Source: a virus. Taken from it: 41,998 nt of DNA. The DNA is taken from positions 1-41,998 of IMG/VR virus record IMGVR_UViG_3300046780_000305. One strand, written 5' to 3'. The position numbers and the translations under genes were made by a program. The notes beneath the pieces are model-generated. The model was not told where the DNA came from. It made no database searches and worked only from the letters and a program-made list of their open reading frames with translations. Of this stretch, positions 28,411 through 31,219 are shown one piece after another (position 1 is the first letter of the stretch; every line of letters begins with the position of its first letter).

Positions 28411-28447
28411 GCTGTTCTCCTGTTGCCCCTGATTTCCCGAGGCGCGG

Positions 28448-28828: not shown

Positions 28829-29308
28829 CTACAGCAGTCCGCGCTCGGCGAACGACATGGTTCTCCCTTCCGCCACGATGAAGTGATCGAGCACCTGCAC
28901 GTCGACCAGCGCGAGCGCCTGCTTGAGCGAGCGGGTCAGGACTTCATCCGCATGGCTCGGCTCGGCGACTCCCGACGGGTGGTTGTGCGCGAAGATGACA
29001 GCGGCGGCGTTGTGTCGCAGCGCGGCCTTCACGACTTCGCGGGGATACACGCTCGTCTGCGTCAGCGTGCCGCGGAAAAGCTCTTCGGCGGCAACCACGC
29101 GATGCTGCGCATCCACGAACACGCACCAGAAAACCTCGTGGCCGAGGTTCTCCGTGAGCGTGATGCTCAGATACTCGCGCACGGCGCGCGGGCTGTTGAG
29201 TGCCCGGCGCGCGCTCATGCGGTTGCGAAGGATCTCCAGCGCCGCGGCGATCACGGCGTCCTCGCTTCCATAGGTGGCGATTTGCTTCAGGACTTCTGAC
29301 TTCTTCAC
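28829..29308 (-). CDS. RadC-like JAB-domain protein
   Basis: A 159-aa protein with GTG 29308 behind AGGAG. It carries the MPN/JAB metalloprotein signature. Glu58 lies in [11 protein letters not shown], the His pair in FAHNHPSG (H108, H110), and Asp121 in [10 protein letters not shown]. It lacks the N-terminal HhH part of full-length RadC (about 225 aa), as do many plasmid and phage copies. The biochemical role of RadC proteins is unsettled. It is the first gene after the strong promoter and tRNA-like RNA at 29360-29468, with a leader of about 120 nt containing that RNA. Confidence 0.92.
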
Positions 29309-29359
29309 TTGCTCTCCTGGCCCCTGATCCCCGAGGCGCGGTGCTGCGGGTCTTGCTTG

Positions 29360-29428
29360 TGGAGGCGGCGGGAGTCGAACCCGCTTGGTAGGATCCAGAG
29401 CCCAACCTTGGTTACCGAACCCGCCCCC
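29360..29428 (-). tRNA. tRNA-like RNA, anticodon loop fits Gln(CUG); possibly degenerate
   Basis: Read on the - strand, a 69-nt sequence folds as a compact cloverleaf. The acceptor GGGGGCG pairs with CGCCTCC (one G-U). The T arm is perfect: GCGGG, loop TTCGACT, CCCGC. The anticodon arm has a 7-bp stem with one U-U mismatch and the loop CTCTGGA, with U33 and purine 37 in place. The D arm is a small hairpin GGTT-CGGT-AACC, shorter than normal. Position 8 is G instead of U, and no CCA is encoded (ACAAG follows). It lies 10 nt after a -10 box. It may be a phage tRNA, a regulatory tRNA mimic, or a tRNA fossil. Confidence 0.55.
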
Positions 29429-29433
29429 GACAG

Positions 29434-29463
29434 TTCGTATAGTACGCTCAATGAGCGTATATT
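29434..29463 (+). promoter_or_regulatory. Candidate rightward promoter opposite the tRNA promoter
   Basis: On the + strand TTCGTA (29434-29439) and TATATT (29458-29463) are 18 bp apart, overlapping the leftward promoter around the same palindrome. The -35 is weak. Transcription would run to the terminator at 29523-29554. Confidence 0.4.
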
Positions 29464-29468
29464 GTCAA
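29439..29468 (-). promoter_or_regulatory. Strong sigma70-type promoter for tRNA-like RNA and radC operon
   Basis: On the - strand TTGACA (29468-29463) and TACTAT (29444-29439) are separated by 18 bp. The predicted start is near 29432, a few bases before the acceptor stem of the tRNA-like RNA. The spacer holds a 17-bp palindrome, so repression by a bound protein is likely. Confidence 0.75.
29443..29459. promoter_or_regulatory. 17-bp palindromic operator TACGCTCAATGAGCGTA
   Basis: Perfect 8-bp arms (TACGCTCA / TGAGCGTA) flank one central base. The site occupies the spacer of the leftward promoter and of the weaker rightward promoter. It differs from the CTAC..GTAG operators of the immunity region, so another repressor, perhaps the XRE-like gene at 27740-28042, may bind it. 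Confidence 0.6.
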
Positions 29469-29554
29469 GGACTATTTTCAAGGGTAAGATTTGCCTGTCT
29501 GGATCCAGAGCCCGTCCTTGGGCAAACCCCCGCCGCGCGCGGGGGTTTGTTTTT
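29466..29554 (+). ncRNA. Candidate small RNA with antisense match to the tRNA-like anticodon arm
   Basis: This stretch of about 85 nt lies between a candidate promoter and a strong intrinsic terminator and has no plausible ORF. CAAGGAC (29466-29472) can pair with GTCCTTG (29514-29520), enclosing the palindrome TCTGGATCCAGA. Bases 29501-29513 (GGATCCAGAGCCC) and CCTTGG (29516-29521) are complementary to the anticodon-arm region of the tRNA-like RNA made from the other strand. It could be an antisense regulator, or simply a decayed duplication. Confidence 0.4.
29523..29554 (+). terminator. Strong rho-independent terminator
   Basis: CAAACCCCCGC (29523-29533) pairs perfectly with GCGGGGGTTTG (29539-29549) around a 5-nt loop, followed by TTTTT. 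It ends + strand transcription. The - strand lacks a matching T run, so it does not obviously stop the lipoprotein transcript. Confidence 0.88.
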
Positions 29555-30033: not shown

Positions 30034-30160
30034 ATTCGCGGTTTCAGATCTACCGGAGACCGTGCCGCGCCTGTGACGCCGTTGTGACGCGCCGGGGCAC
30101 AATCTGGCGAGAGCTGTCACCGCTCTCTCTATGAGAAAACAGGGAGTTAGGGCTACACCG

Positions 30161-30208
30161 AGGGACTCATAATCCTTTGGTCCCTGGTTCGAATCCAGGC
30201 GGGCCCAC
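30161..30208 (+). other. attP-like site: 3' half of a CAU-anticodon tRNA gene
   Basis: The bases form an anticodon arm (AGGGA, loop CTCATAA, TCCTT), a variable region TGGTC and a perfect T arm (CCTGG, TTCGAAT, CCAGG). The acceptor half CGGGCCC with A follows. No 5' half (expected GGGCCCG) is present upstream. The T-stem and variable-region pattern is closer to tRNA-Ile2(CAU) than to tRNA-Met. It lies 16 bp beyond the integrase stop. A phage carrying a tRNA 3' half next to int restores the host gene on integration, so this is the likely attP core. Confidence 0.85.
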
Positions 30209-30223
30209 TTACAAAACAAGGAC

Positions 30224-31219
30224 TTAGGCATATTTCTTCTTTCTCTGTGACGCAGTTGTGACGCGGAATCGCGGGAGTCGCTCGACGGCCCGCTCAAGGT
30301 GTTCATCCAGCAATAGCGCATAGTGTCGCGCTGTGATGGCGATATTCTGATGCCCGAGCAGGTCCTGGGCGACTTTCAAATTCTTGGTTTTCTGCACGAT
30401 CCAGCTGCCGAAGGTGCGCCGGATATCCCGCTGCTGTAGCCAGGGCATGCCGGCGCGATCGCGCGCGCGCTCGAAGGCGTAGCGCAACCAATCTGGCGTG
30501 ACGGCGATCGGCAGGGCCCGCTTGGCCACCGCGAGCGCCGCCGGCGTGAGGGGGATGCTGCGCTCGCGCCCGGTCTTGGAGGCGACCAGCACCAGGCGCC
30601 GGCCGCGCAGGTTGCCGGGCTCGAGGCCGATGAGCTCGCCTGGGCGCAGGCCGGTGAGCGCATCGAGCAGGACCAGATCGCGGGCCTTGGCGTCGGCCCG
30701 AGGAAACGCGGCGAGGAAGGCGCGCATCTGCTTCGGGCTTAGCCGCACGGTGCGCGGCTCTTCGCGGCCGGCCATCTTGATCTTGACCGGCCGGTCGAGC
30801 CAGCGCCAGGTGTCGAACGCCAGGGCTGTCACGCGCCGCAGCGCGGCCAGGCGCCGGTTGATGGTGATGACGGTAAGCCCGGCCTCGCGCCAGGCAGCCT
30901 TGGCGTCCTCGGCGACATCGGCGGCCGCGGCGAGCTGCCGGCCCTTGAGGTGGGGCTCGAACGCGGCGACCTTGTTGACGATGTCATTGTAGAAGGCGAG
31001 GCCCTTGGCCTCGCCCTTCAGCCAGCGCGTGAAGGCTTCGGAAACGGTATGACTCGCCGCCCGGCCGGCGCGGCCGGCATGGGCGTCCGCGCGGAGCTTC
31101 GCTTCGAGCTCGAGCGCCTGTTCCCGCGTCGCACCTCGGCCAGCAGTAAAGCGAGCTCGCGATCCGCCTGGGACGGTGATATCGATGTGCCAGGTCTTGC
31201 CGCGTTTTCGGATGGGCAT
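30224..31219 (-). CDS. int: Tyrosine-recombinase integrase
   Basis: A 331-aa site-specific recombinase for integration at the tRNA site next to its 3' end. The N-terminal arm-binding part starts RKRGKTWHIDITVPGG. Catalytic residues are Arg192 (TGLRPGE), Lys215 (SKTGRER), Arg267 (DIRRTF), His290 (LLGHQNI) and the nucleophile Tyr300 (ARHYALL). The usual His of the HxxR box is Arg264 here (RDIR). ATG 31219 lies inside the upstream excisionase-like frame, so translation is probably coupled. It is the last gene of the leftward operon. Confidence 0.96.
   Translation of the reverse strand: MPIRKRGKTWHIDITVPGGSRARFTAGRGATREQALELEAKLRADAHAGRAGRAASHTVSEAFTRWLKGEAKGLAFYNDIVNKVAAFEPHLKGRQLAAAADVAEDAKAAWREAGLTVITINRRLAALRRVTALAFDTWRWLDRPVKIKMAGREEPRTVRLSPKQMRAFLAAFPRADAKARDLVLLDALTGLRPGELIGLEPGNLRGRRLVLVASKTGRERSIPLTPAALAVAKRALPIAVTPDWLRYAFERARDRAGMPWLQQRDIRRTFGSWIVQKTKNLKVAQDLLGHQNIAITARHYALLLDEHLERAVERLPRFRVTTASQRKKKYA

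Follow-up and report, generated by a model that had tools for sequence, protein, structure and literature searches.

Introduction

Several described systems share part of what we report here. For alanyl-tRNA synthetase, as for tmRNA, the main identity element is the G3:U70 pair, and the tRNA-like domain of tmRNA (RF00023) combines an alanine-type acceptor (G3:U70, A73) with a reduced D arm. In type I toxin-antitoxin systems, a small antisense RNA with its own promoter pairs with the RNA that it regulates, a toxin mRNA. In CreTA, both partners are RNA and the toxin works through the tRNA and translation system; CreT, a small RNA with a mini-ORF, sequesters a rare tRNA, and CreA acts via a CRISPR effector (PMC8501985). 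The Bacillus cereus pseudo-tRNA tRNAOther is tRNA-like, is not used in translation and lies near mobile DNA, and its abstract mentions no antisense partner (PMC3399842).

We analysed a locus in the virus record IMGVR_UViG_3300046780_000305, whose whole length of 41,998 bp is called the window here and supplies the numbering of all positions. The locus combines a tRNA-like RNA, T, with a putative small RNA, A, that is complementary to it. T resembles the tRNA-like domain of tmRNA in its alanine-type acceptor, its T arm and its reduced D arm, but it measures about 69 nt, has no mRNA-like domain or tag, and has a dedicated antisense RNA. In contrast to CreT, T has the shape of a tRNA and can base-pair directly with A, which would make Cascade unnecessary. 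A resembles type I antitoxins as a dedicated complementary RNA with a promoter and a terminator of its own, both recognised by sequence only, but its partner is a non-coding tRNA-like RNA and not a toxin mRNA. tRNAOther is another RNA. The nearest functional analogues of the pair are CreTA and type I antisense RNAs, and the nearest structural ones are the tRNA-like domain of tmRNA and pseudo-tRNAs. We found no tRNA-like RNA with its own antisense RNA in the openly licensed literature, and a description elsewhere is possible; to our knowledge, no described system has a tRNA-shaped RNA with its own dedicated antisense RNA.

Results

Structure of the T RNA

The first-pass annotation had reported a leftward tRNA-like cloverleaf of 69 nt, and the covariance model R1, built without this sequence, recovered it (Table 1). 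Read from 29428 to 29360, it is GGGGGCG GGTTCGGTAACC AA GGTTGGG CTCTGGA TCCTACC AA GCGGGTTCGACTCCCGC CGCCTCC A. The third acceptor pair is G3:U70, and position 29360 is A73. T has almost no linkers or variable loop, positions 8-9 are missing, and CCA is not encoded. At this site ARAGORN called neither a tRNA nor a tmRNA, and Rfam at gathering thresholds gave no match, including tRNA (RF00005). The best Rfam score of T was to tmRNA at a relaxed threshold: 38.5 bits (E 2e-13) in the window and 20.7-34.4 bits in the relatives, below the cut-off of 47. In the tmRNA alignment of window T, about 29 nt replace 326 model positions and nearly the whole mRNA-like domain is absent. T is neither a tmRNA (no tag, score below the cut-off) nor a canonical tRNA (linkers and variable loop missing).

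Table 1. Features of the T/A locus and its first downstream gene in the window.
Feature	Position	Strand	Evidence or detail
T RNA, tRNA-like, 69 nt	29360..29428	-	covariance model R1 (built without window T): 53.5 bits, E 3e-9
Acceptor stem 5' strand, G1-G7	29422..29428	-	pairs with 29361-29367
Anticodon-like loop, 7 nt, CTCTGGA, anticodon position CUG	29394..29400	-	sequence and family alignment
T arm, GCGGG-TTCGACT-CCCGC	29368..29384	-	
T promoter -35, TTGACA	29463..29468	-	promoter scan; TTGACA in 6/6 phage copies, 37-41 nt before G1
T promoter -10, TACTAT	29439..29444	-	promoter scan
Palindrome TACGCTCAATGAGCGTA in T promoter spacer	29443..29459	.	arms covary in relatives around CTCA-N-TGAG or close variants
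A promoter -35, TTGTCA, overlapping T promoter -35	29462..29467	+	promoter scan; conserved in L095
A promoter -10, TAAGAT	29485..29490	+	promoter scan; TAGGAT in L095
A RNA, putative antisense small RNA	~29497..29554	+	5' end inferred from promoter
Antisense segment GGATCCAGAGCCCGTCCTTGG	29501..29521	+	against T positions 18-38 (29391-29411), 19/21 Watson-Crick
A intrinsic terminator	29522..29554	+	hairpin 29522-29550, then TTTTT; segment fold -23.2 kcal/mol
Hairpin/Shine-Dalgarno leader GCGCCTCGGG..CAGGGGCC..AGGAG before RadC	29312..29339	-	
RadC-like JAB-domain protein, first gene after T	28829..29308	-	E 3.8e-45

Our alignments of the relatives supported the fold. The refuting test put forward with the first-pass annotation, arms that decay uncompensated in related phages, did not refute it, since the arms covary strongly. 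The four members of R1, from which window T was left out, align without gaps and pair in 92 of 92 cells. Among 36 sequences, 95.7% of structure cells pair and 19 of the 23 pairs show double changes (190 such cells versus 57 in shuffles), in an alignment that was fitted to the structure and thus leans towards it, as the ungapped R1 alignment was not. Window T folded alone slightly prefers a non-cloverleaf (-33.0 versus -31.7 kcal/mol).

G3:U70 was found in 35 of the 36 family matches and A73 in all of them, which gives T the alanine identity of tmRNA. Pairs 4-69 to 7-66 change with compensation while G3:U70 stays. Since the first search patterns had required G3:U70, we built a further model, R3, with positions 3 and 70 masked; its antisense-bearing matches in Eremiobacterota all carry G3:U70. 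The anticodon positions, as read from the sequences, vary, GUC being the commonest beside GAU, CUG, CUA, UUA and others, and so indicate no single codon target. The canonical tRNA features (U8/A9 linker, variable loop, U33) do not hold for the T family as a whole. Real tRNAs have U at position 33; window T has it too, but about a third of the relatives have C. With C33 in so many copies and with positions 8-9 and the variable loop missing, decoding may not work.

Complementarity between T and A

The sequence GGATCCAGAGCCC occurs twice on the plus strand, opposite T (29391-29403) and inside A (29501-29513), where it is the exact complement of the T anticodon arm. This point was missing from the first-pass annotation. 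In A it is followed by a second block of 6 nt, CCTTGG, which pairs with CCAAGG of T. Co-folding joined the two RNAs through the antisense stretch, and A covers the D arm, the 5' anticodon strand and the loop of T, approximately positions 8-40. Most copies of A are complementary to T over almost their whole length up to the terminator.

The complementarity proved to be specific to each pair in a swap test of 33 T against 33 A regions, in which its own A was the best partner for 24 of the 33 T. The mean duplex energy was -46.1 kcal/mol for own pairs and -33.0 kcal/mol for mismatched ones. None of 100,000 random re-pairings bound as well as the own pairs; because the sequences are related, this should not be read as a strict probability, but the effect size is large. 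Several of the exceptions are near-identical relatives (window/L095, L087/L093, L257/L258), and L226 has no local A. T sequences diverge widely, yet almost all of them have a matching A of their own close by. In phages this A is encoded upstream of T on the other strand, in Eremiobacterota it follows T on the same one, and in G005 it is 1.5 kb off; complementarity is kept throughout. Most copies of A have a terminator, and a sigma-70-like promoter precedes A in both phages and Eremiobacterota. We also rejected tandem duplication as the source of the repeat: in Eremiobacterota A has the inverted orientation with respect to T, and elsewhere it is re-matched.

The idea of a regulated pair of non-coding RNAs, with the tRNA-like one as a mimic, is thus supported. 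The link originally drawn through a shared palindrome gives way to direct complementarity to the D/anticodon half of T, re-matched in each relative.

Promoters, palindrome and neighbouring genes

The two divergent promoters proposed earlier were both identified, as TTGACA-18-TACTAT leftward and TTGTCA-17-TAAGAT rightward. They are the only sigma-70-like sites in 2 kb, where 0.6 would be expected. The strong terminator of the plus-strand RNA was also confirmed; the RNA itself, previously put at about 85 nt, would measure about 58 nt from the conserved plus promoter. The palindrome had been placed in both promoter spacers. It does exist in that of the minus promoter, but our search found a single copy, which rejects a second one, and this copy lies upstream of the conserved plus promoter. 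It would fall inside a plus promoter only if the weaker TTCGTA..TATATT were used. Judged by sequence, the palindrome is likely a repressor operator.

T adjoins the RadC-like gene, which is DNA-repair-like, on its upstream side. The first-pass annotation was right about RadC downstream of T in the window, but this is not a general link: other phages have an SprT-like gene there, and what comes after T in Eremiobacterota is the A gene and no protein gene. RadC was likewise dropped as a defining neighbour, since among the 28 of 80 RadC loci whose upstream region was inspected, the RNA was found only in L001. A leader with a small hairpin and a ribosome-binding site, GCGCCTCGGG..CAGGGGC..AGGA, recurs before several genes of these phages: it was seen in the window before RadC and at about 28420-28445 (minus strand), and in L095, L087, L014 and L025.

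The window has an integrase gene at 30224-31219. Beside it, at 30142-30208, is a tRNA-Met 3' half (phage tRNA-Met genes match it at 91% over 46 nt), which is the probable attP core. A search of known phages with the region returned only tRNA-Met and unrelated matches, and the integrase and one doubtful ORF gave no informative matches as queries.

Relatives in phages

We found the T/A pair in five more phage groups besides the window. The closest RadC relative, at 93% protein identity, is in L001/L087, where the T sequence is different. There the TTGACA promoter is kept, the palindrome is changed, and a divergent A carries GGGTCCAGACCC, complementary to its own T loop. Pattern searches added the phage loci L093, L095, L226 and L230/L231. 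In L095 and L226/L230/L231 the gene downstream of T is SprT-like (HELGH motif, by inspection of the sequence) instead of RadC. In L226 there is no A beside T, but the same phage has one at a distance of 1.5 kb, with the promoter TTGACG-17-CATCAT, CTAGAGCCCGTCC that pairs with T, GTTACC that pairs with the D arm, and a terminator. The operator arms differ between the phage T loci, and the two arms of each palindrome vary together.

The T-carrying phage contig L093 also has, at 575-2005 and 587-801, a diversity-generating-retroelement-like reverse transcriptase with a YVDD motif and an Rfam RT-15 RNA (151.9 bits). In addition, many phage contigs contain apparent mini-tmRNAs, RNAs of 77-80 nt closed by a short hairpin, often CCGCAnGCGG (among them L105:7634-7712, L113:49-127, L121:5913-5991, L129:1884-1963, L156:2724-2801, L172:2668-2744 and L181:320-399). 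The seven tested scored 56-72 bits as Rfam tmRNA, with the mRNA-like domain absent. We rejected them as members of the T family, because those tested exceed the tmRNA cut-off and hardly any has an antisense partner.

Relatives in bacteria

In bacteria, T was recovered by pattern search from two genomes of Eremiobacterota and one of Acidobacteria. With the R1 model, the T/A pair was found in 18 of 149 Eremiobacterota genomes, a count that leaves out two more tRNA-like matches, L264 and L268. There are up to three copies per genome, some in tandem, and copies with differing loops in one genome fit orthogonal pairs. The pair is isolated and flanked by unrelated genes. A follows T at a distance of about 100-160 nt and has its own -10 box, and in nearly all copies the best complement to T is in this expected place.

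Upstream of T in Eremiobacterota there is an element TTG[AT]C ... GTGA, whose GTGA lies about 13-22 nt before T in 18 of 27 cases (shuffled mean 1.25). It differs from the A promoters, and T may therefore be conditionally expressed; the shared GTGA suggests a special sigma factor for T. Between T and A in L235, L248, L244 and L247 we also observed a hairpin right after T, for example GGCGGCG-TCGACGGGTCCAG-CGCCGCC in L235, whose loop is complementary to the T anticodon arm. This hairpin is possibly a second antisense element acting in cis. L264, in the Eremiobacterota genome G120, is a more canonical tRNA-like sequence of 73 nt with G3:U70; a near-complement of 19 nt lies 121 nt beyond the point where it starts.

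One convincing genome was found among 199 Acidobacteriota, with a 62.9-bit match; the other matches of model R2 there (39-47 bits) look like ordinary tRNAs by length and score and were set aside. Among 199 Actinobacteriota genomes, one (G414; L290/L291) has T-like RNAs, two in tandem, for which no A was found. They are preceded by TTGACA with a palindromic spacer (ACATACGTCCGATGTATGTA) and followed by a small ORF, ribbon-helix-helix-like.

Discussion

We propose, with a probability of about one half, that T mimics a tRNA, is charged with alanine and acts on translation, and that A is the antisense RNA silencing it, the two together forming an RNA-only toxin-antitoxin-like module. T combines the alanine identity elements (G3:U70, A73) with a non-alanine anticodon loop; alanyl-tRNA synthetase would charge it with alanine, and it would then misread or block in translation. 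A, short and separately transcribed, would pair with the D arm, the 5' anticodon stem and the loop, and because it covers these parts, binding would break up the cloverleaf and so inactivate T. In the phage, a repressor at the palindrome in the T promoter would additionally hold T. Release from this operator-like palindrome, for example on induction, would turn on T and the RadC operon at the same time, and A would keep stray T silent.

The complementarity of T and A is symmetrical, and the roles could thus be reversed, A being an active small RNA with host or phage mRNAs as its targets and T a stable tRNA-like sponge that titrates it away. Sponge RNAs made from tRNA spacers exist, and T has a regulated-looking promoter of its own. 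Such an A, however, would need a free seed, for which the nearly complete complementarity to T in most copies leaves little room, and a sponge would need no G3:U70, A73 or covarying acceptor stem, so that we consider this reading unlikely, if worth keeping in mind. Phages P4 and P1 have immunity RNAs, and by analogy the phage T might be a processed leader of the RadC operon, in which A causes premature termination or altered processing. The operator promoter does lead straight into T, we saw no evident terminator on the way from T to RadC or the SprT-like gene, and the differing operator arms recall immunity groups. In Eremiobacterota, however, the isolated pair has the A promoter and terminator directly after T, so that operon control cannot be the general role; a leader seems to us rather improbable.

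Some copies look closer to a working tRNA: ARAGORN called tRNA-Gln(CTG) in L001 and L093 and tRNA-Stop(tta) in L229, and stop anticodons (CUA, UUA) occur. But duplication of an ordinary suppressor or glutamine tRNA would not give an A that is inverted in one group, parallel in the other and equipped with its own promoter and terminator. ARAGORN was silent on window T, and the swap test makes an incidental A unlikely; we hold the chance of this explanation to be very small. Attachment sites are often tRNA pieces and the phage T locus is near the integrase, which might make T a tRNA remnant or an attachment site from integration. This is refuted by a fold that compensatory changes have kept across phages and phyla, and by the separate tRNA-Met half as the att-like sequence, and we regard it as next to impossible.

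The alanine-charged mimic silenced by its antisense could, more tentatively, represent a new RNA-only class of toxin-antitoxin system, although we lean against so broad a claim. The toxin would be a mischarged tRNA, with alanine on the anticodon of another amino acid or a stop anticodon, the antitoxin an antisense RNA unzipping the anticodon half, and many mutually orthogonal versions would exist in phages and bacteria. We found no known family that covers the T/A pair, Rfam giving only the sub-threshold tmRNA match, and each pair offers a clean, testable partner specificity. If T is alanine-charged, phages and a poorly known phylum would possess in it a natural device for mistranslation or stop readthrough that is controlled by an antisense RNA, and it would also provide a new RNA-only control tool.
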